From: Spartobacteria bacterium LR76
GTDB taxonomy: Bacteria; Verrucomicrobiota; Verrucomicrobiia; Chthoniobacterales; Terrimicrobiaceae
Assembly: GCA_003054655.1 (NCBI GenBank)
Contig: QAYZ01000010.1
Span: 1 to 64,000, forward strand
Direction of reading: 5' to 3'
Length of the DNA: 64,000 nt
Part shown: positions 10,627-38,483 of the stretch, piece after piece
How the letters are laid out: each line of letters starts with the position of its first letter
How positions within the stretch are numbered: the first letter of the stretch is position 1
Translations under genes and position numbers: made by a program
The notes under the pieces: generated by a model
Databases searched by the model: none
What the model was told of the DNA's origin: nothing
The model's input: the letters and a program-made list of their open reading frames with translations, nothing else

Positions 10627-11083
10627 CGTTTTCCTCCTCCAATAGTGTCGTGATCATGGTGATCTTTTCCGGCGGGCAGGTGGCGGCCCACCCGCGTGAT
10701 TTCAATGTGCGGGCGATGGCCGGCAGCGTGTGCACGACCATGGCCCAGTAACCCAGCGCCCTCGCCCGGCGCTTCAAAAAATCCAGCCCCGTGAGCAGCG
10801 CGGCGCGCGCCGCCTTCATTCCCAGCCCGGGCCGCGTGACGATCTGCTCGGGGAAGCAGACGCCGACGGAGTTGTCCATATAGAGCCAGATGGCTGCAAG
10901 GTCGCGGCCCGAGGGCTGCTCGTAGATGATGATGCCGAGGCGCGGGAGCATCTGGAGCGGCGGGGCGCACCTCCCATGCTCCGCGTGCCATTCCTCGATC
11001 ATGGCGTAGTCCCGCGCGGGGTCGAACTCCCGCAGTTGCAGATACGGCTTCATCGGGCGATGCGTTGCGGCCTCAGTCTCCAT
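10610..11083 (-). CDS. phage GNAT-like protein (gp13 position)
   Basis: 157 residues with a GNAT-type pattern: an N-terminal REFDPARDYAMIEEW start, central strand DLAAIWLYMDNS, a P-G-L-G-M helix in the acetyl-CoA loop position, and a terminal SRGW strand. Many T7-like phages carry a GNAT-fold protein between tail tube B and the internal proteins. Enzymatic activity is not assured. It overlaps both neighbouring genes. Confidence 0.65.
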   Translation of the reverse strand: METEAATHRPMKPYLQLREFDPARDYAMIEEWHAEHGRCAPPLQMLPRLGIIIYEQPSGRDLAAIWLYMDNSVGVCFPEQIVTRPGLGMKAARAALLTGLDFLKRRARALGYWAMVVHTLPAIARTLKSRGWAATCPPEKITMITTLLEEENDGHGS

Positions 11084-13352
11084 AGACCTCCCATTTCAGG
11101 ACGAGGTCAAGCACGGTGAGAGGCAGGGGCTGGGCCTGGCGCACGGCGATGTCGGCCGAGGTGGCGTGGCTGCCCGCGACGACGACGTTTTTGTCGCCGG
11201 TGAAGACGGGCGGGCTGTCGTCCATGAGGTCGCCGGTGGAGCGGGAATAGACTGCTCCCCAGCGCGCGCCGCCGTCGCTGGAGACCTCGCCGCCGAGGGA
11301 CTTGTGCAGGGAGAGGAGCATGCGGTGGATGCGTTTCTTGCGGCCCCGGGAGGAGCCCTGCTGGTCAGGCATCTCAAGCTTCATCGGGCGCAGGGTGGAG
11401 GTGAAGGGCAGCCCGGCGAGGACGATGCCAGCGGGGGATTGCAGGGTAACCGCGCCGCCCGAGACCTCGCGCCCGGGCGAGACCGCGCCATCGGCGAGGA
11501 TTTCCACCTCCTTGCCCTCCAGGTGATCGAGGCCGGAGACGGTGGCGGACTCGGGGGTATTGACTACGCGCCGGGCGCAGTCGAGATACCACCAGTGGAC
11601 CTTGTCCTCCTGCTCAAAGGTCTCGCGGAAGTCGGTGCGGAAGCGCTCGATGTAGCGCACGTCCTGGCCGTCGATGGTGCGGCGCACGGCGACCCAGACC
11701 TCGTCCGCGCCATTCGCGCCATAAGTGGTGGCGACGCTTTCAAACGCGCCATCGGTGGTGTGGCGGTGCCAGCCGACGACGTTTTGCAGGCGCTCGTAGG
11801 TCATGCCGACGAGCTGGCCCGCGCCGGTGATGGTCCAGTAAATGGCGTCGGGCTGCTGCTGAAAGGCGCACTCGAGCACCTCGCCGCGCGTGATGTGCTC
11901 GGAGAGGAGGGTGAGATCCTGCGCGACCCAGCCGTCTTTCTCAAAGGAGTAGACGAGCTCGCGCACCTTGCGCCCCTGGCGCTGGACGAAGAGGACGACG
12001 TCGTTGATGATGAGGGCGCGGAGGGACTTTGACCCGTAGCTGGACTGGCGGGCGGCGCGCACGTTGGTGGGCGTGAGGGCGGAGTTGCTGTCGCTGCTGC
12101 CCAGCGTCCACTCGTCGCCGGCGGTGCCGATGAGGAGCTGGTCCTGGGAGAGGAGCCACTGGATGGGATTGGACTCCTGCGCGGAGAGGGTGAAGAACAA
12201 CCCGGAGTCGTCGAGCGAGGAGACGCGGAAGTTTTCAAAGTCGTCGATGACGCTGCCCCAGAGCGACTGCGGCCGCGCGCTGGTGCCGCCAAAGTAGAGC
12301 CGCTGCTCGTGCAGGGTGACGGTGCGCGGGAAGCCCCGGCGCTGCGACCATGCGCCCTCGGCCCAGGCCCGGGTCGCCGTGGTGGCGGTGAGGGCGTTGA
12401 CCACTTCGGCCTTCGCATGGGTGGAGTCGGTAACCTCGGTGATCTTCACAAAGCCGTACTCGCGCGACTGCACGGCCTCGAGCCGCGCGGTGCCGGAGCC
12501 GGAGGAAAAGGCGACGGTGAGGCGCAGGAGGACCTCCTTGTTTTCCTTGCCTGTGGCGGAGACGTTGCGGTTGCTCTCGGAGGCGAAGGAGCGAATGGTC
12601 TCCCAGTTTGTCCCGCCATCCTCGCTGCGCTGCACCTGCAGGGTGCCCGCCCACGTGCCATAGGTGGTGATTTCCCAACTGCCGATGACGGCGAGGGAGG
12701 ACGAGGTATTACTCGCGGTGATGGAGACGGTCACGGAGGCGTTCGCGCGGGCGTGGGCGATCTGCCAGTACGCGCCGACGTGGCCGCTCTCAAAGAGGTC
12801 CGCCGACGCGGTGAGCGTGATGCCCGTGCCCGTCGTGGCGCTGGGCGTGATGGTGGTCGCGTCGGTATTGTCATCGAGGAAGGCGGGCCAGTCCCATGCG
12901 ACGGGCGCGAAGGTCCAGTCGGTATCCGCCCGGCGCGTGAGCTTGCGCGGCTCGTGCGCGGGGTGGACGAAGTACATCACGTCATTGATCTGCACGTACT
13001 GGAGGTCGCGCAGCTCGCTCTCGAGGTAGGGCGTGGCCAGCTCGAGCGGCGATCCGCCGCTGGTGGGAACCTGGACGCCATTGGACCAGAAGCGGACGTA
13101 TTGACGGCCAAACTCGAGGACGAACCGCGTGGTGATGGAGAAGTTGAACCCGATGAGGCGGCAGCGCGAGTCGGCATGCTTTGCCCGGCCGAGGTACTCG
13201 GTGCCGGGACGCCGGTAGACGCCGCCGTAGGGCAGGATGATGAAATTCTCGAGCAGGCGGCAGCCGGAGGCGTATTTCTCCAGGTCGCTGCGGGCGTCGA
13301 GATAGGGCGAGATTTCTCCCGCGTTGAAGCTGGGGATGAGCTGATAAGCCAT
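11073..13352 (-). CDS. tail tubular protein B / nozzle
   Basis: 759 residues, beta-rich. The beginning (LIPSFNAGEISPYLDARSD) and the GGVYRRPGTEY segment at about 40-50 are hallmarks of the gp12-type tail-nozzle family. It follows tube A after 5 bp and overlaps the GNAT-like gene. Full length and intact. Confidence 0.85.
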   Translation of the reverse strand: MAYQLIPSFNAGEISPYLDARSDLEKYASGCRLLENFIILPYGGVYRRPGTEYLGRAKHADSRCRLIGFNFSITTRFVLEFGRQYVRFWSNGVQVPTSGGSPLELATPYLESELRDLQYVQINDVMYFVHPAHEPRKLTRRADTDWTFAPVAWDWPAFLDDNTDATTITPSATTGTGITLTASADLFESGHVGAYWQIAHARANASVTVSITASNTSSSLAVIGSWEITTYGTWAGTLQVQRSEDGGTNWETIRSFASESNRNVSATGKENKEVLLRLTVAFSSGSGTARLEAVQSREYGFVKITEVTDSTHAKAEVVNALTATTATRAWAEGAWSQRRGFPRTVTLHEQRLYFGGTSARPQSLWGSVIDDFENFRVSSLDDSGLFFTLSAQESNPIQWLLSQDQLLIGTAGDEWTLGSSDSNSALTPTNVRAARQSSYGSKSLRALIINDVVLFVQRQGRKVRELVYSFEKDGWVAQDLTLLSEHITRGEVLECAFQQQPDAIYWTITGAGQLVGMTYERLQNVVGWHRHTTDGAFESVATTYGANGADEVWVAVRRTIDGQDVRYIERFRTDFRETFEQEDKVHWWYLDCARRVVNTPESATVSGLDHLEGKEVEILADGAVSPGREVSGGAVTLQSPAGIVLAGLPFTSTLRPMKLEMPDQQGSSRGRKKRIHRMLLSLHKSLGGEVSSDGGARWGAVYSRSTGDLMDDSPPVFTGDKNVVVAGSHATSADIAVRQAQPLPLTVLDLVLKWEVYGD

Positions 13353-16684: not shown

Positions 16685-18229
16685 CTAATGCCGCGCGGCG
16701 AAGCGCTTCGTGCGGCCCGCCATCTTCACCGCCACGCGGCCGGAGTGCGCCGCCGCGCCGCCGGAGGAGATCATCCCCGCCATCTCCGCCTCGGCCATCA
16801 TGCGCAGCGCGTCCGCCGCGTGGCTCGACCAATCGTGCACCGGTTCGTCGCTCGCCCGACCGCCCTCGCCCTGGCTGCGTGTGTGGTAATTTGCCAGCGC
16901 CTCCAGCCCGGCCTCGCAGGCCGGAATGCGGAATGACATGCGCGGCATGAGCTGGCGCAGGCGGTTGATGCCCACCCAGATGTCCGCCGTGCGCGGGATG
17001 ATGCGGGTATTGACCAACCCGGCCGCCGCGAGCTCGCTCTGGAAGGTCCGCCCGCTGCGCTCGGTGACCGCCGCGTCGTGCGGCAGGTAGTGGGTTCCGT
17101 AAATGTAACCCTTGGCCAGCATGCGCGAGACGCGCTGCACCGGCGTGAGGTCGAGCGGCGTGTCCGCGCTGGAGAGATCGACATCGACAACGCGGATCTC
17201 GCGCCCGACGAACTGCACGTACCACACGACGGTATTGAGCGGACTACCGAGATCCCAGAATGTATGGACGAGTCCGCTGCCATCGACCGACCCGCCCGTG
17301 ATCGCACCCTGCCGCCGCAGATTGTCAATGAGCGGCGCGTAGATGGCTCCGTCGATCGGGGCGCGAAAGCACTCGTCAAACGTGGTAGGAAACTCGCGGT
17401 ACATGAAGACGCCGAGGCTTGCCCGCCGCCGCGCGTACCAGGTCTTTTGCCCGAGGTCGAAGGCCCGCCCGATCTCGGCCTCCTTTTCCGCAAAGTAGGC
17501 GTGTAGCTCCGGATCGATGCGCGACTCATCCCCCGCCTCGCGATAGGTCGGGTCGTTCCACCACGGGAAGAAAAACAGCCGCCAGTCCTGCAACGACCGC
17601 CGCCCCGCCGGAATGGCCAGGGCGTCTTTCACCAGCGTCCACAGATGGCCGTTGCGCCCGCCCTTCCATGTCGTCTCGATGATTGTTACGCCATGCTCCG
17701 CCGAGGGCAGCGCCCCGGTGAGGATCTCCTCGGAACGACCTGGATCATCCGCCTGGATCACGCCCCACTCCGAGATGTGCAGGAGCTGGTTCGTGCCACC
17801 GCGTGCGTTTTTCCCCGCATAGATCGCGCTCACCGTATCGCCGGAGCGCGTCTGGAGCTGCCACGAGCTGTCATTGTCCCGCACCACGAGGAAGCGCTCG
17901 CGGATCGCCGCGGGAAGAGATTCAAACGCCACCTTGCAGATGCCGCTCAGCTTTTTGCTCGCATCGTCCTGATTGCGATCGACGATGCTGATCTGTCGCC
18001 CGGCGTGAAATATTGCCTCGTCCGCCGCATAGACATCGATGGCCGTGCTCATGCCGAGGCGGCGGGCCTTGAGGATGATGAGCTTGCGATGACCCTCCGC
18101 GAGAGCTTGAAAGACCGCCTCCTGTTCGGGACGCGGAACGAAGGGAATCACCCGCCCGGTCTCGGCTTCCTTGATGGAGTACAGGTTGCGCAGCCGCCAG
18201 AGGCGGTCCTTGAGATGATCGACCTTCAT
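16685..18229 (-). CDS. terminase large subunit
   Basis: 514 residues from the ATG that overlaps the TerS stop (ATGA). The ATPase part has a Walker A variant K54-A-R-R-L-G-M-S-T62 and a Walker B-like strand ending VTIIETTW. The C-terminal nuclease half shows HTFWDLGS, a YLPHDAA segment and DWSSHAADALRMM, the acidic and His-Asp sites of the RNase H-like nuclease. It packages phage DNA into the prohead. It appears intact although the portal it should dock with is missing. Confidence 0.85.
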   Translation of the reverse strand: MKVDHLKDRLWRLRNLYSIKEAETGRVIPFVPRPEQEAVFQALAEGHRKLIILKARRLGMSTAIDVYAADEAIFHAGRQISIVDRNQDDASKKLSGICKVAFESLPAAIRERFLVVRDNDSSWQLQTRSGDTVSAIYAGKNARGGTNQLLHISEWGVIQADDPGRSEEILTGALPSAEHGVTIIETTWKGGRNGHLWTLVKDALAIPAGRRSLQDWRLFFFPWWNDPTYREAGDESRIDPELHAYFAEKEAEIGRAFDLGQKTWYARRRASLGVFMYREFPTTFDECFRAPIDGAIYAPLIDNLRRQGAITGGSVDGSGLVHTFWDLGSPLNTVVWYVQFVGREIRVVDVDLSSADTPLDLTPVQRVSRMLAKGYIYGTHYLPHDAAVTERSGRTFQSELAAAGLVNTRIIPRTADIWVGINRLRQLMPRMSFRIPACEAGLEALANYHTRSQGEGGRASDEPVHDWSSHAADALRMMAEAEMAGMISSGGAAAHSGRVAVKMAGRTKRFAARH

Positions 18230-18696
18230 GATTCGGCTCCCTCCCGGCGCTCGCCCGCCGCGCGGACTCCGTCGAGGAAATCCAGCAGGGTGTCGGAGGA
18301 ATCGCCCTTCGGCTCGTATTTCTCGCCGTATTTCTTCGGCGCGAGGCGAGCGATCATCCACTTCCTCGCCTCCACTCTCAATCGCGAGCGGGATATTGCC
18401 TCCTCCCGCAGCACGATCGTGCGCAGGCCCGTTTTCGATTCTTTTTCCACAAAGTCATTCGTCCCGTCATCCGCGATGTCGAGGATCTCGTCAAAAAGCG
18501 CATCCGCCTGGTGCTCGCGCGCCAGTGCATACTGCGCACGAAACGCCTCATCCGCCTGGAGCCAGCGATAGACAGACGCCAGCGACGGCATCCCGGCGTC
18601 GCCGCAGATCCGCCGCAGGCTTTCCCCGCCCGCCAGACGCTCACAGATCACTGCGCCGAGGGCCGCGCTTCGCCTCACCCGTTGATTTGCCGACAT
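18226..18696 (-). CDS. terminase small subunit
   Basis: 156 residues. The N-terminal helix-turn-helix (GGESLRRICGDAGMPSLASVYRWLQADEAFRAQY) and a coiled middle (AREHQADALFDEILDIADD) are the recurrent features of phage TerS. The C-terminal RKWMIARLAPKKYGEK segment is also common to this group. The ATG at 18696 overlaps the conserved leader motif. It is coupled to TerL by ATGA. Confidence 0.85.
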   Translation of the reverse strand: MSANQRVRRSAALGAVICERLAGGESLRRICGDAGMPSLASVYRWLQADEAFRAQYALAREHQADALFDEILDIADDGTNDFVEKESKTGLRTIVLREEAISRSRLRVEARKWMIARLAPKKYGEKYEPKGDSSDTLLDFLDGVRAAGERREGAES

Positions 18697-22334: not shown

Positions 22335-22750
22335 AGTTTTAGTAGTGGCAAAATTTCCTCAAGAACTTCGGGAAGCCTGCAAGGAGCGTCGGGAAGAGTC
22401 TCGCCTGCTGCGTAAGCGACCTGCACGGCATTGATCCAAGCACGAGTAGCGGCGAACTTTGGAGGGAGAGGGACGCCTGCCGCCGCAAATTTCGCGGCAG
22501 TATCGAGGAGGTTCACGAGCGCAATAGCGTCGAATCCGAAAGCGGCTAGATGTTCGGAAACCGATCGGAAGCGAATAGCCTCTATGTAAGCCGCTGTCTC
22601 GTTTGACTGTGTCCAGATGGAATAAACGTCGCGCCACCCGCCGGAAATATCCTGTCCATCAAGCGGCACAAGCACGGCTCCGGACTCAAGCGTCTGCACC
22701 TCGACAACCGACCGTTCGGGATTCGCGAATTTGGCTGATACAATCGTCAT
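22331..22750 (-). CDS. phage protein next to the tail fibre
   Basis: 139 residues from the ATG of MTIVSAKFANPE. The family is not recognised. The start overlaps the tail-fibre stop (ATGA) and the end overlaps the next gene in the same way. The C-terminal half is helical and acidic. It could be a fibre assembly protein. Confidence 0.5.
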   Translation of the reverse strand: MTIVSAKFANPERSVVEVQTLESGAVLVPLDGQDISGGWRDVYSIWTQSNETAAYIEAIRFRSVSEHLAAFGFDAIALVNLLDTAAKFAAAGVPLPPKFAATRAWINAVQVAYAAGETLPDAPCRLPEVLEEILPLLKL

Positions 22751-24084
22751 CCCTTGATTTCCTGGAGAACGAGTGTTTGACCCAACGCCCCGCCTAGCAG
22801 TGTTGCATTGGACCAAAATCGATTGATATAAATGGTCAACGCTGCATTTGGTCCCATGCGGATAGAGTAGGTCTGCTCCGACGTGCTCGCCGAAGAGTCG
22901 ATGAATTCGATAGCGGTTCCAGTGCAAGCGTCGGCAGAAAACATCGCCCCATATCCAGATTGGAGAGCGTCATTTACACCGCTCTTGTGCAGCGAATAAA
23001 GAACGAGGCCCGAAGCCGAAATATTTGCAGAACCAACATACCGGCAAAGAATCTTATTCGATGTACTCGAAGGAGTTATAGATGCTGACAGAATCTGTGT
23101 ACCCTCGGATATTTGCGGCTTCGTGCTGTCCGGTGGGACGATAGCCGTCATTGAAGCTGGAGTCGTGTTTACCACGGAGACGGTTTGCAGCACCGTCCCT
23201 GACGGAGCGATGGCATTCCATAGCCCCGACGCGCACAGCCCAGAGTCCACGAATCCGGATGCAAATTTTCCCCTCCCCAAGCTGTCCGCCGTGAAGATTC
23301 CCGCGCCGATCTTCGCCAGGGTGAGGAAGTAATCAGCCATCTTCGCCCGCCCCGTCGAGTCAGCAGAAAGAATCTCACTCGCAAGCATCGCAGTGGTGAC
23401 GTGACCATCAGGAATTCCGCCGACAGGAGCCGTCCAGCTCCCAGCGCTCATTCCATTTGAAGCCCAAATTGTCGAGTCACTTAACTGCACGCCCACCTGA
23501 CCTGGAAAATCTGGAACCGCCATCGTTCGATCGGCTTCGGTCAGCCAGGCTTTCGTTCCCTCTCCGAACACCTGCTGTGTCAGATTGAGCCACACGGCGA
23601 GCTGCTCCGGCGTAAACGTCCGCGGCTGCGAATCGCCGCCGAATCCGATGACCGAGTTTGCCACTGTCGTCAGCGTTGACTTTCCCCCGTCGCTTTCCCG
23701 CACCCTCAGCGCCCGATCAAAAGCTCGCGCATTCTGCTGGTTCAGCATCGTCTGACGATCAAGGGCTCGCTCGTGCGTCTTGGCGGGGAATTCCCCATTC
23801 TCCTCGTACACCGTCGTTTGCACCGCCGCCACTTCGCGATAGATCGTCACCCGCGAGGTCGCGGGCACGGCGGAGGCAGTCAACACCGACCCCCCATTTT
23901 CATTACCCGCTCCCGCCACGGAATAGTCGCTACCTTCCGTCAGCTCCGCATCGGTTCCCGCGGTATCCGTCACCACGACCCGCAGGTCGCTCGCCTCAAA
24001 AAAATAAAACGGCACCGGGTATGCGATCCCCGTCGATCCGTTCCCCCAGTACTGCACTCGATTTGTTTCGTTCTGTACGCTCAT
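22747..24084 (-). CDS. tail fibre protein, T7-type N-terminus
   Basis: 445 residues. The first 110 residues match the T7 gp17-type adaptor: NRVQYWGNGSTGIAYPVPFYFFEASDLRVVV, TIYREVAAVQTTVYEENGEFPAKTHERALD. The rest is beta-rich, low in cysteine, and ends in a region suited to receptor contact. The gene heads the minus-strand operon, with a candidate promoter motif 85 bp upstream. The start at 24084 is the first ATG that fits the family; an upstream ATG adds a hydrophobic tract. Confidence 0.8.
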   Translation of the reverse strand: MSVQNETNRVQYWGNGSTGIAYPVPFYFFEASDLRVVVTDTAGTDAELTEGSDYSVAGAGNENGGSVLTASAVPATSRVTIYREVAAVQTTVYEENGEFPAKTHERALDRQTMLNQQNARAFDRALRVRESDGGKSTLTTVANSVIGFGGDSQPRTFTPEQLAVWLNLTQQVFGEGTKAWLTEADRTMAVPDFPGQVGVQLSDSTIWASNGMSAGSWTAPVGGIPDGHVTTAMLASEILSADSTGRAKMADYFLTLAKIGAGIFTADSLGRGKFASGFVDSGLCASGLWNAIAPSGTVLQTVSVVNTTPASMTAIVPPDSTKPQISEGTQILSASITPSSTSNKILCRYVGSANISASGLVLYSLHKSGVNDALQSGYGAMFSADACTGTAIEFIDSSASTSEQTYSIRMGPNAALTIYINRFWSNATLLGGALGQTLVLQEIKG

Positions 24085-24168
24085 GGTTATAAGTAGAAAT
24101 ACCACAAGTCGCCCCATCATAAAAGCCGAAATCCTTCAAAAACCAGCCCTGCGCGCCAAAAACCGTCT

Positions 24169-24299: not shown

Positions 24300-25082
24300 A
24301 TGTCGGAAGGCCAAACAAGCATCCCCTTGAAGGACCGGTGGCTCAGATCGGGTATCGAGCCGGGTGACACCATCCTTATTCACAGTAATATCAAGCGTAC
24401 GCTCATCGAACTACGACGCAGTGGCGTCGCTGTCACCGTTGAGGAAATCCTCCAGAGCTTTCTCGATGCGCTCGGAACTCAAGGTACTCTTTTGCTTCCC
24501 TTGTTTAGCTTCGACTTTGCAAGCGGGATTCCCTTTGACATCAGAACGAGTCCTTCACGTATGGGTGCGCTCACCGAAGCGGGCCGACTCCACAAAGACG
24601 CCGTCCGCACCGGACATCCCATATATTCGTTCGCCGTCATCGGGCATCACTCCGAAGCATTCGCAAACCTCGACAATGAAAGCGGCTACGCAGAGGATTC
24701 ACCCTTCGGCGTCCTCAGGACATTGAACGGAAAAATTGGCGTTCTCGACCTCGAAGACCAAAATAGCATGACATTTTATCATCATGTCGAGGAGGTCATG
24801 CAGGTCGACTACCGATATTACAAGACCTTCACCGCGGACTACACGGACTGGAAGGGCGTCACCACACCGCGGTCCTATAAACTCTATGTGAGAGATATCG
24901 AACGCGGGGTGAAAACTAACGTCAACCCTGCCGGGGAATTGATGTGGGAACAAGGCCTGTACAAAGGGTTTCGCCCAAAGTGCGACACGGGCATGAGGGT
25001 CATTAGGAGCCGAGAGATGTTTAGCTTCACCGCCAACCTGATCGAGGAAGGCAAGGCCCTCGGAACCCTTTACTCGCTATAG
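24300..25082 (+). CDS. AAC(3)-family N-acetyltransferase
   Basis: 260 residues. The AAC(3) fold is shown by GIEPGDTILIHSNIKRTL, GTLLLPLFSFDF, the TSPSRMGALTEA segment, RTGHPIYSFAVIGHH with the family His, SPFGVLRTLNGKIGVLDL and TFYHHVEE. Members near glycan genes acetylate amino sugars rather than antibiotics. The next gene begins 1 bp after the stop, so both probably act in surface-glycan or small-molecule modification. Its codon use is A+T-richer than nifJ. Confidence 0.8.
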   Translation: MSEGQTSIPLKDRWLRSGIEPGDTILIHSNIKRTLIELRRSGVAVTVEEILQSFLDALGTQGTLLLPLFSFDFASGIPFDIRTSPSRMGALTEAGRLHKDAVRTGHPIYSFAVIGHHSEAFANLDNESGYAEDSPFGVLRTLNGKIGVLDLEDQNSMTFYHHVEEVMQVDYRYYKTFTADYTDWKGVTTPRSYKLYVRDIERGVKTNVNPAGELMWEQGLYKGFRPKCDTGMRVIRSREMFSFTANLIEEGKALGTLYSL

Positions 25083-32087: not shown

Positions 32088-32541
32088 GGCTCTACGCGAC
32101 CCGCCGCGTCCTCCCGCACGCATGCCCGCAGTTCATCCCCGGTAGCACCGCCGCAGGAAAAGGAGCCGTCCTCAGCCAACAAAATCGCCGCACTTTCCCA
32201 CCGGCGAACCGCAGCATGGAAACCGACTCCCCCCGCCCCCCACCCTCAGGCGGCAGATGAGACCCGGCCATGCCCTGCTTATGCTCAGCAAAGCTCAATC
32301 AGCGTTTTCCTTCCGGTTAAAAATGAGTCTTCCGTCTGGGATCAGTCAGGAAGTGTTGGGGGGATACTTTCTCTCTATTACTTCGCAGCTTCCGCCGGGG
32401 GCGACTCCTTAGGGCAAGCAAAGCGCTCCCGGCTCCGCAAGCGTTAACAAACGCCGCCCGCCCTGCCAAGCGGTTTCTGGCCAGCCCAGATCACCCAAAC
32501 CATCGCGCCCAAACCATCGCGCCCAAGCCAACTGCCTCCGC

Positions 32542-32618
32542 GCCATCACGGCGCACGCCGTGAGTTCGCGGCGTCCCGTCATCACCGCGTAAGGCCACCC
32601 CTTAGCTTCCTTCGCTTC
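32542..32618. repeat. 76-bp direct repeat, copy 1
   Basis: Starts GCCATCACGGCGCACGCC and ends TAGCTTCCTTCGCTT. Copy 2 is at 32835-32910 with a handful of differences. Both are followed by pyrimidine-rich text. Confidence 0.75.
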
Positions 32619-32834
32619 CTTTTGTAAAACCCTGCCTTTCCTCCGGTACAGCCGCGCCGCGCGACCGAGCCCCACGACGCCCCGCCGCATCCCCTCGCGC
32701 CAAGTCTGAAAACTGAACCACTCAAAACTTGCAGTCTCCCCTTAGCTACCTTCTGTTATTCACCCCGCCTTTGCCGCCTCCCCCTTTGTGTCCTTTGCGA
32801 CCTTCTGTTGACTGCCTTTCCGCCTTCCGTCCGT

Positions 32835-32910
32835 GCCATCACGCCGCACGCCCTGAATTCGCCGCGTCCCGTCATCCCCGCGCAAGGCCACCCCTTAGCT
32901 TCCTTCGCTT
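32835..32910. repeat. 76-bp direct repeat, copy 2
   Basis: Second copy of the 32542 repeat. The TTAGCTTCCTTCGCTT end is identical. Unknown function; may be non-coding RNA or element debris. Confidence 0.75.
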
Positions 32911-33012
32911 CGTTGGCTTCGCCTGTCTCGCAAAGCCTCGGCTCTGTTCAACCCTGCCTTTGCGGCCTTCCCTTCGTGTCCTTTGCGCCCTTCTGTTAAA
33001 AAGTATCTTCTG

Positions 33013-34089
33013 TCAGACCTCCTCCGGCGCAGGCCAGGAGGGCTTCGGGTCACCCAGAGCCTCCGCCACCCAGGCCACCTGCCCCTCGTAGGCCATGCGG
33101 GCTGCGGCAAAGTCCTGCCACGCCCGTTCGCGATCCTCCACCAGTGGCACCCCCGCCGCCGCCAGCGCCGCGCAGGCCGCATCGTAAGCCTCGCGCTTCA
33201 CCTCCGCCAGGGCAGGATCGCGCCGCGGCACGATCGGCGTCCCATACATCGCGTGGTGAATGTTTTCCATCGTCTCGATGCCGCATTGCAGGCAAATCTC
33301 CGCCGTCCCAGCAGGCCTCGCCACCGTCGTGCGCGCCAGCGCCACCGCATCGAGGAACGCGCCGAACGCACACACCCACGAGCGATCCGGCTTCACCGGG
33401 CGCACCAGGCTCAGGATCGGCAGAAAGCTCCGCGCCTCCGCGAACTTCCGAAAAAACGCCTCCCAGTCCTCCCACACCCCGTCAAGCGAGTCGCCGCGCC
33501 CATTGCGGTAATGCCACAGCACCAGCCGCGCCCCGCAAGGATGCTCCCCCGCCCGGTCATACACCCACGCCACCCGCCGCCCGCGCTCCTGGATCACATC
33601 CATGAACGACGGTAGAAAGGTAAACAAATACACCACCACAAACAGCCCGATCGCCCCCTCCGCGATGGCCAGCAGCTCGCCCGCCTGCGTCTCCGGCGTG
33701 GAGAAACCCAGCGTGCTCAGCGCCGACCCGCTCGCGATCACCGCCCGCATCACCGACGGCTCCGCCTGCACCGCCACATTCATCAGCGTAAACCCCAGCA
33801 TCACCAGCAGGAACCACGCCGCGATGATCGCCATGAACGCGCACGGCCAATACCACGTCAGCACATCATTGCCCCGCCGCCGCGCCCCCGGCATCCGCCC
33901 GATGTAAAGCCGGAAGACAGCCAACACCATCCGCGACACCCAGAACGCCATCGGATCACGGAACTTCCGGTTCAGCACGCCGACCCGAATGATCGACTTG
34001 AAAAAATACACCACGCACCCGAGCCCGAGCAGCCCGATCACCACCCGCCCCGCCACATCCAGCCAACTCATCTCGCCAACAGCCACCAT
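33013..34089 (-). CDS. membrane protein with ion-channel-like pore region
   Basis: 358 residues. Three N-terminal membrane helices (about 15-35, 85-115 and 140-165), then a soluble domain of about 190 residues. Between helices lies a pore-like segment, SGSALSTLGFSTPETQAGE, whose T-L-G-F-S-T resembles the filter of two-TM potassium channels. The soluble part has cysteines (GEHPCGARL, EICLQCGIE). The start is uncertain: ATG at 34089 or 34071. No neighbour in an operon. A cyclic-nucleotide or RCK domain is not visible, so the channel call is tentative. Confidence 0.55.
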   Translation of the reverse strand: MVAVGEMSWLDVAGRVVIGLLGLGCVVYFFKSIIRVGVLNRKFRDPMAFWVSRMVLAVFRLYIGRMPGARRRGNDVLTWYWPCAFMAIIAAWFLLVMLGFTLMNVAVQAEPSVMRAVIASGSALSTLGFSTPETQAGELLAIAEGAIGLFVVVYLFTFLPSFMDVIQERGRRVAWVYDRAGEHPCGARLVLWHYRNGRGDSLDGVWEDWEAFFRKFAEARSFLPILSLVRPVKPDRSWVCAFGAFLDAVALARTTVARPAGTAEICLQCGIETMENIHHAMYGTPIVPRRDPALAEVKREAYDAACAALAAAGVPLVEDRERAWQDFAAARMAYEGQVAWVAEALGDPKPSWPAPEEV

Positions 34090-34340
34090 CACCCCACCCG
34101 AACTACACCCCCACAGCGCCCACCGGGAAGTTTTCTTTTTGCCCGAAGGCTCCGAAAAGGGCACCCTTCCCCTCAACTACAGATCAGGTTTAAGCAATGA
34201 CTTCCCTCGCCCATTGACCATAAGCGACAAATATCCTTACCGAGGCCTTGCGCAAGAAGTCGACTAACAAAACCAACCGAACCAAAACATAGACTTGCGG
34301 ATACCTTCTTTTGAGAAACCGTTACCCTGATTCACGACCC

Positions 34341-36947
34341 ATGGACGCTTTGAACAGAAAGATTGGCTTGGAACCGTCCGCCAGTGAACGTGACGAGGAC
34401 CTCCCGTTCGGTCACCTTCAACTCGGACGTCGTCCTCACAACACCTGCTTGAACCTTGATCTGAAAACCATCGCCGATGTCATCAGAGGTCTCGAAGCAC
34501 GTACGATTTCGGCATCTAGTGCGGGAGCAAAAACATGCCAGGAAATCGAACAAGCCATTGAAAGAATTCGTTCATTCCAATCTGAGGAAGGAGTCGATTG
34601 GGATCAGTTTTGGATCGAGCAAGGTCTGGCGAAAGACAGAGTATTCATGACCTCGCGATCCCTTGAGAGACTGCTTCCTGAGGTTCGCTCGTGCTCCCTT
34701 GGCATGATCCATCTTGGAAAGGCTTGTACCGGCTTGGAGGCGGCTGGAATTGACTCGGTGGGCAAGCTGATCGATGCCGCTCGGAGCGGCTTCGACAATC
34801 TCAAGAATTTCGGAGCGAAAGCCCATTCCGAGACAATGGATGCTTTAAAAGCCCTCTCAAGTGTCGCTCAAGCGGATGGTTCCGTGGACTGGATTGAATA
34901 CGCGGCCAGACGGGGTTTTGAGATTATCCCACAGCAATCGAGTGATACCGAAACGTTCGTGAACGACATTTTGCCCGCCGCATGCGAGCGGGTCATTAGA
35001 GCGCAGTTCGAGGACCGGGATTGGAATATATTCAAACGGCGGCTGCTAGTATCAAAAGAAGAGTCGGAGACGCTTCAAGCAATTGGCGATGTATACGGCA
35101 TTACTCGAGAGCGAGTGCGGCAAATTGAAAGCCTTTGTCTCGATGCGCTTAGGAGCCCACTCATTGAGAACGACTACCGAAAGCTGGCTTTTCGCTTCCA
35201 GCCGGAATTTGTAGAAGCGTTCCGTTCGGCTTTGGCTCATTACACCGACCTAGGGGTGCCGGCTTGGATCAAAAGCCGCTGGATTCGTGAGCTTGCCCAG
35301 CTTTGGCAGGCATCGGAGACCAAGCTCATGGATCACTATCGCCTGGTCGCGGAGATCCTTGGTTTTAAAAGCATCCCATCTTCCTGCTCCATTTTGGAGC
35401 CATTGGTTGTCGATCAGAAAACTCCAAATTCGGAATCGAATCGATGGATCACGTTGATCGAATCGATTCACGAGATATTGAGTGATGGAGCGGCGAGAGA
35501 CTCGTTCGAACTCGCCAAGGTGCTGAAAGCAAAACGCCTCCCCCTAAAAAATGTCGACGAGATTCCCTTCCTTATCGAACTTTGCTCCACGGTCGAATCC
35601 GTAAAGGAAGACCTCTACCGCCTCCGGTTCGAATATCTTCGCGGACGGGCAAATCAGGCTGTTCGAGTTCTCAATGAAGCAGGTGCACCACTACATAATA
35701 CCGCGCTGATTCGGGAGATCAACCGGCAGTTGCCTCGAGATCGCCGTCTGAAAAACGTGGAGAACCTCGTCGGTCAAATGTCTTCCGACAACCGACTGCT
35801 TCCAATCGGGAAAAGCGGAAAATGGTCGCTGGCGGAGTGGAAATTGGAAACCAGACCGATCATCGAACTGATAGAGGAAATATTCACCGACGAAGGTGAG
35901 GCGATCCATATCGACGACCTCACCGAACGAGTATTGAAGTTACGCACAGGCTCGGCGGCGTCTATTTCTCTGATTTTGAGCTGCAATCCGGACCGCTTCC
36001 GAAGGGTTGCCCCTCACATCTATGGTCTCACAGCATGGGGGAAGATAGATGAATCATCTCTGCTGGACCTCGACACGACAGCTCAATTTGTTGAGCGATA
36101 TTTCGAGCAAAGGGCTGGCAAGGAGGTCCCATTCAAAGAACTCCGCGAAGCATTTTCCAAGGAGACGGGGAGCGAGTCGCGATCCGCTGCAGGAATCTTG
36201 GCAAATAACCCGGCGGTTAAAATCGTTCGACCAAAGACGTATATTCGCCTAGCGTCGTTCAATCCAAACTGGAGGTCCGAACCGACCAAAAGAACTTACA
36301 CCCGGCGAAAGCCTCCGCAGGTCGATGTCATTGTTGCCGCAGTTACAAAAAAGCTGGAGCAAGAACCGACCGGAGAGCGTCCGCTTGTGGATATTGTCAG
36401 CGAGCTTGAGAAGGAACTGGATATTCGCAGAGCGACCATCTACCCGGCCATTGATCAATCCGAGGCGGTAGAGAAAATTACAATTAAAGGGTCAGCTTTC
36501 AAAATCTGTCGGTTGACGGGAAGGAGCCACAATCGCTTCCCAGAACTGCCGAAACTGAAAAATCCTGCATGGCGAGCCGAGTGCGAACGCGCCGTCGAGA
36601 AATTGACCCCGAAAGACGTAGACATCGCCTTATTTTTGCTCGGCCGCCAATTCGATCAAGCCATGCGTCTGCTTCTGGAGGCCGCTCGGGACCAAGGTGG
36701 TTTTCCTGTTTCGGAGGGTCACATTAACCGACTTCAGAATCGCATTGATTGGGCAGTCAGCCAGCATGTGTTCACGGACAAGGCAAACCTCGTGCTCCTC
36801 AAAAATGAACGCAACGAGCGGGGACACGAGCCTCCAGCTCCCGACGAGCAAGAGGCCACAATGAAGTATGCACCTTATCTGGCCAATCTCTACATCGATT
36901 ACCTAATCATGATCGATGATCGCATCCGCGGATTTAAGCATTCCTAA
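34341..36947 (+). CDS. multidomain RNAP-like/HEPN protein, putative defence or regulatory factor
   Basis: 868 residues from this ATG (a TTG at 34311 adds ten). Order: two HhH modules like the RNA polymerase alpha C-terminal domain (about 40-85 and 125-175), each followed by a V-D-W motif; a sigma-70 region 4-like HTH near 240-275 (LQAIGDVYGITRERVRQIESL); several winged-helix-like repeats with a HARE-HTH flavour (about 440-710); and a C-terminal helical domain with the HEPN RNase motif R-N-E-R-G-H in LLKNERNERGHEPP. It has no signal peptide. Codon use is A+T-richer than the flanks and there is no operon, which suggests transfer. Such a combination would suit a host-transcription or phage-sensing protein with RNase output; that role is inferred. 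Confidence 0.7.
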   Translation: MDALNRKIGLEPSASERDEDLPFGHLQLGRRPHNTCLNLDLKTIADVIRGLEARTISASSAGAKTCQEIEQAIERIRSFQSEEGVDWDQFWIEQGLAKDRVFMTSRSLERLLPEVRSCSLGMIHLGKACTGLEAAGIDSVGKLIDAARSGFDNLKNFGAKAHSETMDALKALSSVAQADGSVDWIEYAARRGFEIIPQQSSDTETFVNDILPAACERVIRAQFEDRDWNIFKRRLLVSKEESETLQAIGDVYGITRERVRQIESLCLDALRSPLIENDYRKLAFRFQPEFVEAFRSALAHYTDLGVPAWIKSRWIRELAQLWQASETKLMDHYRLVAEILGFKSIPSSCSILEPLVVDQKTPNSESNRWITLIESIHEILSDGAARDSFELAKVLKAKRLPLKNVDEIPFLIELCSTVESVKEDLYRLRFEYLRGRANQAVRVLNEAGAPLHNTALIREINRQLPRDRRLKNVENLVGQMSSDNRLLPIGKSGKWSLAEWKLETRPIIELIEEIFTDEGEAIHIDDLTERVLKLRTGSAASISLILSCNPDRFRRVAPHIYGLTAWGKIDESSLLDLDTTAQFVERYFEQRAGKEVPFKELREAFSKETGSESRSAAGILANNPAVKIVRPKTYIRLASFNPNWRSEPTKRTYTRRKPPQVDVIVAAVTKKLEQEPTGERPLVDIVSELEKELDIRRATIYPAIDQSEAVEKITIKGSAFKICRLTGRSHNRFPELPKLKNPAWRAECERAVEKLTPKDVDIALFLLGRQFDQAMRLLLEAARDQGGFPVSEGHINRLQNRIDWAVSQHVFTDKANLVLLKNERNERGHEPPAPDEQEATMKYAPYLANLYIDYLIMIDDRIRGFKHS

Positions 36948-37088
36948 TCATGTCAACACTTCCCACCCCAACCCAATCTGGTACGTGATTGGCAAATGGG
37001 ATCAGTCTAGGCGGTAGACAGGGTCAGCCATTTAATATTGATATTTGAAGATGGGCCTTCCGTTGAGAAGGCGGAGGCCGGAATGCGG

Positions 37089-37652
37089 TCAGGTGGCACA
37101 GGCTCGGCGGGGTTTCTTCTCTGCCAGGTAGTGCTCGATCACGCGCATGGCGTCCTCTGAGGACCCGGCCAGGCCGGTCATCTCGATGCGTAGCGCATAG
37201 GCGGGCGGGGTCATTACGCCCGGGATCGCTCTCATCGTGCCCCGGTAGCACCGGGCGAGCCAGCCGGTCGCGTATTTGTCGAGATCGATCACCTCCAGGT
37301 CGATGGGGCGCCATGTCTCGGAAAAACAAACATTCACGCCGCTGCCATCCGGGCCATTGACCGCCTCCCGGCGGGGACCGCGCGCGGCCGTGACGACAGC
37401 CTCCCAGGGGATGAGCGAATAGTAGGCGCGGTAACAGAGAATGCCCCGCTCATCGATCTCCACGGCGGGTCCGCTGGCGGCGAGGTTTGCGACGATCAGG
37501 GCGATCAGCCCGGCGAAGACCACAGCGGCAGCCACCTGTCCTCCCATGGGCAGCCGGGCAAAGGCCAGCATCCCGAAGGCACCGCCAAAGGCCAGGATAA
37601 GCACGAGCAGGCCGAGGTACCAGAGCTTGGAGGAATAAGCCACGAAGCGCAC
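37089..37652 (-). CDS. small membrane protein with cytoplasmic beta domain
   Basis: 187 residues. Two membrane helices (about 10-33 and 40-60) are followed by a PH-like beta segment: GPAVEIDERGILCYRAYYSLIPWEAVVTA is the typical start of such bacterial PH domains. The C-terminus is helical (SSEDAMRVIEHYLAEKK). Function unknown. Confidence 0.65.
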   Translation of the reverse strand: MRFVAYSSKLWYLGLLVLILAFGGAFGMLAFARLPMGGQVAAAVVFAGLIALIVANLAASGPAVEIDERGILCYRAYYSLIPWEAVVTAARGPRREAVNGPDGSGVNVCFSETWRPIDLEVIDLDKYATGWLARCYRGTMRAIPGVMTPPAYALRIEMTGLAGSSEDAMRVIEHYLAEKKPRRACAT

Positions 37653-37768
37653 GCTCCGAGCCTTACCTCAGGCAGAATGACTTAGCGATGATTTCGCGCC
37701 TTGGCCCCGGGAAAAAAGTCGTAGCGGGACAAAAATCCCTCCTGCGATATCGCCGAGCCGGTGAAAAC

Positions 37769-37786
37769 AGGGGGGGCGAGCCCCCT
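37769..37786 (-). terminator. hairpin downstream of the truncated PEP-CTERM gene
   Basis: Read on the minus strand, AGGGGGCTCGCCCCCC followed by TGTTTTC makes a GC stem with four U residues. It lies about 107 bp past the stop at 37893. Confidence 0.5.
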
Positions 37787-37892
37787 CGCCTTCGCAAGTC
37801 CTCTCGCCTTCGCCAGTCGGCGACTTTGCTTACCCCTTGGTTCTGATCGTGCGTTGATTCCCGCCCATGCCCGCTGCGGGGCGGGCGGGGAA

Positions 37893-38483
37893 TTAGGCGC
37901 GGCGGCAGCGGACGGCGAGGAGGGTGGCGGCGAGGCCGAGACCGATAAGGCCGAGGGTGCCGGGCTCGGGGACGACCTGGGCCACGTAGATGGCCTGGCT
38001 GGTGGCGGTGGCCCCGCCGGGGGCGCCCTGACCGAAGAAGAGGTTTTCGGGGAGGATGACGTTTACGGAGATGAAGGCGTCCCAGCCGTTTTGCGCGATC
38101 TGGCTGGAAAAGGCATCGTCGAGGAGGACGGTGCCCCATTCTTCGGTCCAGATGAAGGCGCGGTTGCCGAGGTTGGTCTCCCCGTCAAAAAGGGCATAGG
38201 TGCCGTAGGCGAGGCCGCTGTCGGTGAAGCCTGAGATGGAGGAGGCGCCGTAGTTGTCGGAGGCGCGCGCGGAGAAGTCGAAGGCGACCTGGGAGCCGGT
38301 GGTGAGGTTGAAGATCCAGGCGTTCTGGCCTTTGCTGTTGGAGCCGGTGTAGCGGGTGGAGGCGCCGTAGACGTAGAGGCCGTTGACGATGCCGGCGACG
38401 GCGCTGGTCTGGGAGCCGGTGCTGCTGGTGTGGAGGACGTCGGTGAGGCCGACGCGGGTGGTCGTGCCGGTGGTGGGAGATGA
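37893..38483 (-). pseudogene. PEP-CTERM exported protein, 5' end lost to a repeat
   Basis: The open frame reads into repeat DNA at 38484, so its apparent first 14 residues come from the element. The true protein part begins about SSPTTGTTTRVGL and lacks a signal peptide. The C-terminus carries a standard sorting tail: VVPEPGTLGLIGLGLAATLLAVRCRRA. The missing start is not found upstream; the glycoside hydrolase gene begins soon after. The fragment is therefore unlikely to be exported or sorted. Confidence 0.75.

Follow-up and report, generated by a model that had tools for sequence, protein, structure and literature searches.

An array of RNA polymerase-type modules with a candidate HEPN-like C-terminus, encoded at a variable site in Spartobacteria bacterium LR76

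The window analysed here, the opening 64,000 bases of contig QAYZ01000010.1 (189,610 bases) from Spartobacteria bacterium LR76 (genome of 4.75 Mb in 16 contigs), carries at 34341..36947, on the plus strand, a gene whose product joins modules of RNA polymerase (RNAP) type to a C-terminal helical region. The gene is a single open frame of 868 amino acids, from an ATG at 34341 to the stop at 36947; an alternative in-frame start, TTG at 34311, would add 10 residues. Its G+C content is 0.519, compared with 0.66-0.667 for three neighbouring genes, and its G+C at third codon positions (GC3) is 0.561, compared with 0.644-0.904 for eight other open reading frames of the window. The flanking genes, 33016-34176 and 37092-37652, are both on the opposite strand, and the gene therefore stands alone; no usable repeat or promoter/terminator pattern was obtained around it. 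A preliminary description, made from the nucleotide sequence, had pointed to both the isolation of the gene and its A+T-richness relative to the flanks, and both observations hold. The composition supports horizontal acquisition of the gene.

Residues ~18-640 form an array of RNAP-type modules, comprising two copies of the α C-terminal domain (α-CTD), a σ region 4 (σ4) and a δ-like HARE domain, together with further winged helices (all coordinates for the modules are on the plus strand). The full-length AlphaFold2 model, built from an eight-sequence alignment, has block values of the predicted local distance difference test (pLDDT) of 71-93 over residues ~111-570, with lower values on both sides. 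The first α-CTD-like module (residues 18-97; 34392..34631; block pLDDT 34-55) is diverged, and the second (residues 112-184; 34674..34892) matches the Pfam family RNA_pol_A_CTD (PF03118) over residues 131-170 with 25.2 bits (cut-off 23.8; E 1.4e-5), or 29.7 bits when the N-terminal piece is scanned alone. Each is followed by the motif VDW, at residues 85 and 182, and the two copies align with one another at Z 6.1, with 0 of 300 shuffles scoring as well. In the full model the α-CTD fold matches 1z3e with Z 8.5 and a root-mean-square deviation (rmsd) of 1.9 over 63 aligned residues. Only the CTD of RNAP α is found; a Pfam scan at E up to 10 did not detect its N-terminal assembly domain. In the α-CTD alignment the loci L003 and L004 carry RASNAL, comparable with RAANCL in the RpoA-like protein L042, and we take the R and N of these motifs to be the DNA contacts R265 and N268 of E. 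coli α. At this position the window protein reads KACTGL, and it largely keeps the second loop (NFGAKAHSE versus NFGKKSLNE).

The σ region 4 helix-turn-helix (HTH) motif (residues 224-271; 35010..35153; PF04545, E 5.8e-10) scores 39 bits against a cut-off of 24.1, and lies in a conserved VDW-σ4-RFxxxF module that an alignment shows to be common to close relatives (residues 176-351; 34866..35393). Foldseek pairs this region with the σ region 4 structure 3n97_A at probability 1.00 and TMt 0.81, but with E 0.37, and no row for the full model reaches E 0.001 or better. At E up to 10 Pfam detects neither σ region 2 (core binding, -10) nor region 3. In a viral fold search with the full model, two rows had E of 0.001 or less (an uncharacterised protein of Vibrio phage VpV262 and one unnamed), followed by a phage σ subunit at E 0.0023, the other rows being mostly long and of very low TM-score.

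Beyond σ4 the chain continues as a series of winged helices. The first is modelled at residues 363-430 (35427..35630) and resembles the Cul1 winged helix 3tdz (Z 8.9, rmsd 1.9, 67 aligned) and the Rok DNA-binding domain 5zuz (Z 8.0, rmsd 2.1, 63 aligned). The second (residues 430-501; 35628..35843) is a HARE-HTH or RNAP δ-like winged helix (PF05066): in the full-protein scan its match, over residues 438-500, falls below the Pfam cut-off of 25.9 (24.7 bits, E 3.1e-5), and the region scanned alone rises above it (27.6 bits). The same stretch has an NCBIfam RNAP δ match, below the cut-off of that family, and its fold agrees with RNAP δ, 2m4k, at Z 10.0 (rmsd 2.1, 70 aligned). The third (residues 505-564; 35853..36032) matches the Z-alpha domain 1j75 with Z 9.2 and rmsd 1.0 over 55 residues, and has an aligned counterpart in L003 and L004. 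A probable fourth, at residues 577-637 (36069..36251), has modelled secondary structure at block pLDDT 52-76 and aligns with the preceding unit at Z 3.3 (3 of 300 shuffles as good). A possible further one at residues 660-725 (36318..36515) has no support from the model (block pLDDT 31-59) and aligns with residues 505-564 at Z 2.0, a score equalled by 17 of 300 shuffles. The preliminary description had recognised the tandem α-CTD-like modules with their repeated VDW, the σ4-like HTH and the winged-helix-like repeats, the last being surest in the three units that span ~363-564; its characterisation of the protein as an RNAP mimic stands, with δ (HARE) added as a third RNAP-type element. The array very probably reads DNA.

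What kind of site does this gene occupy? The genus has two other genomes, G086 and G087, whose orthologues of the left flank gene, 33016-34176, have 94% and 87% protein identity, respectively. Nucleotide comparison with the sister species G086 delimits a variable stretch, 34153..37796, between genes that are orthologous in the two: the G086 match ends at window position 34153 (intergenic stretch) and resumes at 37796, in a PEP-CTERM flank (37796-38471) that has 83% DNA identity to G086 and is collinear with the left flank there. The right boundary is less sharp than the left, the gene 37092-37652 being absent at the G086 site and having a 71% relative elsewhere in that genome. At the same site in G086 (L119:9932-11883) lies a restriction-modification (R-M) pair of 0.506 G+C, an EcoRV-family restriction endonuclease (Pfam Endonuc-EcoRV, E 6.5e-106), whose frame starts ~85 nucleotides (nt) past the end of the match, and then a D12 adenine methyltransferase (E 1.8e-42). 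In G087 the contig stops 383 bases beyond the flank gene; these bases, of 0.384 G+C, match neither of the other genomes, apart from one 25-base match of 92% elsewhere in the window (E 2e-4). In both congeners the protein of 34341-36947 finds matches to its σ region only.

The three genomes of the genus thus each have a content of their own at the site, A+T-rich in every case. One of the two congeners has an R-M system there and the other A+T-rich sequence without assigned content, a small sample. The site is probably a defence hotspot, and this is the strongest new evidence on the gene: since an EcoRV-type R-M system occupies the same position in a sister species, the gene itself is probably an antiviral defence gene, as its sequence relationships also suggest. 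Beside the site, at 32535-33013 and at L119:13125-15541, there are repeated segments of ~50-260 nt, ~67-86% alike, with many copies in the sister species, which may bear on its variability.

Relatives of the α-CTD-σ4-winged-helix part are few. Five of 213 genomes of the order, this one included, match it at E <1e-20, and a repeat scan of genome contigs recovered the same four relatives, the initial scan having given none. A profile of the five order sequences, run against 384 genomes of the class, gave one further long match, G249, among the matches listed, the others being short and fitting rpoA or winged-helix parts. Across 387 genomes of the phylum the module profile separated G249 and this genome (E 6e-53 and below) from the rest (1.9e-10 and above); matches with E of 1e-7 or less came from 59 genomes, and the further matches listed are, by their coordinates, α-CTD (rpoA-like) or region 4 (σ-like) parts. 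Six plasmid records matched, the longest match, covering 27% of the query, being on a plasmid of Fuscovulum ytuae (WP_281470338.1; tblastn E 3e-16 over residues 116-351). The N-terminal modules found no match in viral contigs; in phages four records matched, only by region-4-type alignments inside residues 200-298. A Paenarthrobacter match was dropped, being annotated as a σ factor with a helicase-like sequence ahead of it by eye.

The two relatives found outside the order share the α-CTD - VDW - σ4 - RFxxxF module with the window protein at 20-30% identity. In G249 (G249:C118) the run is Mrr, GHKL, HNH, SNF2, EcoRII-N, the relative, Dcm and Vsr, with Vsr on the opposite strand and a GHKL protein that matches MzaB at E 1.1e-46. 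On the Fuscovulum plasmid the row is dcm, vsr, an ATP-binding protein (MzaB-like, E 7.4e-44), HNH, helicase, EcoRII-N and the relative, although Pfam detects nothing at E up to 0.001 in the gene annotated as HNH. Both thus lie in Dcm-Vsr-GHKL(MzaB-like)-HNH-SNF2-EcoRII-N operons. They differ from the window protein in that the module is repeated within one protein, there is no counterpart of its C-terminus, and the gene is part of a large R-M-like operon. The defence context proposed in the preliminary description is supported both by these operons and by the R-M pair at the orthologous site. Two distant hosts, L022 (an Alphaproteobacteria plasmid) and L066 (a contig in the class of the window), have in common a set of Dcm, Vsr, GHKL, HNH, SNF2/helicase, EcoRII-N and α-CTD/σ4 genes, of which the α-CTD/σ4 member is unmatched in PADLOC under the thresholds applied.

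Proteins related mainly over σ4 occur in phosphorothioate islands. One, in Pontibrevibacter, lies beside PbeA; another, in G339 (L121:1-7395), is a protein of 1014 amino acids with one σ4 HTH, encoded between a PbeC/DndD-like gene and a DndB-like gene that is below the Pfam cut-off.

How does the protein compare with known systems? The second group of MORC/paraMORC R-M systems combines a GHKL ATPase, an SWI2/SNF2 helicase and an HNH or EcoRII-like nuclease, often with a cytosine methylase and Vsr (PMC2292703). The operons of the relatives resemble this group, whereas the window gene has no such neighbours, and the term sigma is absent from the text of that paper. MzaA of the MZA system (NF041931, PDLC02203) is a defence protein with a σ4 HTH and a GHKL partner, the counterpart of which is MzaB-like in the operons of the relatives; the window protein matches it over residues 197-273 only, at 35.9 bits where the cut-off is 800, and so falls outside the family. 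PglW of type 2 BREX has an α-CTD-like domain followed by three winged HTH domains, with effectors on the same chain (PMC12839542). The window protein has a weak PADLOC match to it inside residues 1-203 (E 0.0011), but none of the NERD nuclease, kinases and inactive STAND domain of PglW is matched in Pfam at E up to 10. BrxL carries a σ-HTH (PMC12839542) and a DndH variant a σ-related HTH (PMC10853773). In BREX and Dnd such α-CTD-like and σ-HTH domains are read as binding DNA or nucleic acid, and HEPN domains have been proposed as backup suicide effectors (PMC12839542, PMC10853773). The window gene shares the grammar of PglW, BrxL and the DndH variant, with other parts, and an array plus an effector is therefore the most economical reading. 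In the accessible literature on these domains with defence or HEPN this architecture was not found; subscription papers, such as the HARE-HTH survey, could describe relatives.

The candidate effector is the C-terminal all-helical domain (residues 742-866; 36564..36938, plus strand; block pLDDT 37-60), which is modelled by AlphaFold2, at low confidence, as helices 742-752, 757-766, 768-784, 792-807, 810-825 and 834-866. It contains the motif RNERGH (residues 824-829; 36810..36827, plus strand), at the end of helix 810-825. The Rx4-6H motif of HEPN domains spans the end of helix 3 and the beginning of the loop that leads to helix 4 (PMC3710099), and RNERGH, between modelled helices 810-825 and 834-866, has the placement given in that survey, in a part of the model where pLDDT is 43-58 and falls below 50 at residues 825-831. 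D772 and R776, in modelled helix 768-784, may be compared with the acidic Ex3[KR] of HEPN helix 2. The likeness to HEPN RNases (PMC3710099) thus consists of an RNxxxH between two modelled helices, with no profile match and a fold that remains putative. RNERGH also fits the HEPN definition of Rx4-6H with a polar residue after the R, a weak test given how often shuffled sequences pass it. As a HEPN motif it is suggestive only. We regard the C-terminus as a plausible, unproven HEPN-like candidate and have not filed it as a HEPN member; the chance that the domain is HEPN seems to us about even.

The explanation that we favour is that the gene encodes a horizontally acquired, single-gene defence protein in which an RNAP-derived array is joined to a built-in effector. 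The array would read invader DNA that is promoter-like (UP/-35) or base-modified, a related protein probably playing a like role as a component of the Dcm-Vsr-GHKL-HNH-SNF2 operons. The C-terminal helical domain with RNxxxH would be the effector, most likely a HEPN RNase; when the array engaged its target, RNA would be cut and infection would abort. Taken as a whole, this chain (acquired defence gene, DNA-reading array, HEPN RNase effector, abortive infection) has in our judgement somewhat less than an even chance of being right. Its more specific form, one-gene abortive infection in which a chimera of α-CTD, σ4 and δ-HARE senses the promoters of an invader or transcription complexes altered by a phage, and the killing is done by a HEPN RNase at the C-terminus, is more doubtful.

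Of the observations that weigh against this explanation, a first set concerns the C-terminus. When the whole protein is shuffled, 4.4% of copies contain RNxxxH by chance, and when the C-terminus is shuffled, 2.2% do; the corresponding figures are 13.6% and 6.8% for R[NDH]xxxH and 98.6% and 72.9% for the looser Rx4-6H. An acidic-x3-basic pair is common in helices. Because pLDDT is low throughout (37-60 over the C-terminus, below 50 at the motif, 39 in a separate model), the helix topology is weak evidence. The C-terminus has no match at E up to 10 in Pfam, PADLOC or NCBIfam, and among PDB sequences only two rows, at E 1.2 and 1.4. Alignment by hhalign with the HEPN sets DUF4145 (14 domains) and Swt1 (2 domains) remained at the level of decoys, of which 23 of 42 and 36 of 42, respectively, scored as well. 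At E up to 0.001 the region is found in this genome only, one of 387 in the phylum and one of 384 in the class. In the class search 12 other genomes had rows at E 0.003-0.09; one of these, L095, is a P-loop ATPase by eye. Plasmids gave no homologue, the rows of another search there being two, with E values of 4 and 5, and viral contigs gave none; in phages there were two rows only, at E 8-9. No HEPN protein is among the best 50 rows of each fold search with the full model, lists that are headed by winged-helix and σ-like folds and barely probe the C-terminus, and recognition by fold from a separate model of residues 669-868 was abandoned, its pLDDT being 39 and its Foldseek rows (globins, coiled coils, others) meaningless. 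The preliminary description had taken the RNERGH motif as a sign of a HEPN RNase: the motif is present, its value as a signature is weak, and HEPN identity is not established by profile, sequence and structure tests that were negative or weak. The RNase activity, the docking on RNAP and the triggering by phage takeover of transcription that it proposed are likewise conjectural.

The remaining points concern the relatives and the site. The four relatives in the same order have frames of 450-509 codons, stop to stop, and stand alone without the C-terminus. Their neighbours are, by eye, ordinary or mobile genes: argS/PTS-like genes around that of G182, an ammonium-transporter-like gene beside that of G140, and IS1-like transposase and XRE-like genes beside that of G143. 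A second branch of α-CTD-σ4-HARE proteins (L030:8492-10409, split over two frames, with L007; and L067:6844-8733, whose domains are from Pfam) also stands alone among ordinary genes, gatB/murC-like and mfd/pdxA-like by eye, and so speaks against a uniform defence role. Region 4 is weaker in the relatives (19.3 bits in G249 and 16.3 in Fuscovulum, against the cut-off of 24.1), and none is reported by Pfam in L003 and L004. The hotspot itself is based on three genomes and one identified defence system. According to the preliminary description, homologues tied to housekeeping genes and invariant across strains would tell against defence; invariance is not what we see at this site, while the surroundings of the short relatives lend the objection some force.

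Foremost among the alternatives, though in our view unlikely, is a pure DNA-binding component of a defence system, a specificity, targeting or regulatory subunit with no enzyme, whose partner is encoded elsewhere and whose C-terminal helices bind protein. It fits the absence of the C-terminus from both operon relatives and from the short relatives, which terminate inside or past the winged helices, and the lack of any enzyme profile match in that region. However, no co-directional partner gene adjoins the window gene, unlike the operon members, and ~210 extra residues need explaining: none of the relatives found has an equivalent of residues 657-868, which place an RNxxxH at the position of the HEPN site, in a low-confidence model.

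A second alternative is that the protein acts on transcription, its σ4 and α-CTD mimics competing for the β-flap, -35 or UP elements so that phage or host transcription is shut down or redirected. Three RNAP-type modules on one chain, and the retention of TRERVRQIE in the σ4 of the window protein, would favour this. We nevertheless consider it improbable, since the recognition helix is an SRQ/TRQ...K variant in three of the four short relatives and domains of the same types are read, in accounts of BREX and Dnd, as binding DNA or nucleic acid (PMC12839542, PMC10853773). Equally improbable is a protein that is not concerned with defence, a lineage-specific regulator or chromosome-binding protein placed at a variable site by chance, which would suit the ordinary or mobile neighbours of the short relatives and of the second branch but not the R-M system at the same site in the sister species, the relatives inside R-M-like operons or the patchy presence across the order.

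Elsewhere in the window, 4000-24100 is occupied mostly by minus-strand genes that appear phage-like by eye; this run, which ends 10 kb short of the gene, may be a prophage. They include a tail-like gene (11076-13352) and a tail-fibre-like gene (22750-24120), both assigned by eye and the latter with no Pfam match, and 16688-18361 has a weak Terminase_6C match (E 0.0012) below the cut-off. A protein of the Antibiotic_NAT (aminoglycoside N3-acetyltransferase) family is encoded at 24300-25079 (E 1e-26).

Finally, DNA-binding modules of RNAP type recur in differing defence islands, in GHKL/R-M operons and phosphorothioate islands here and in PglW, BrxL and a DndH variant in print. A self-contained single gene makes the role of σ- and α-like domains in antiviral systems testable. 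If its C-terminus is a HEPN RNase, the protein would couple promoter sensing directly to the cutting of RNA.

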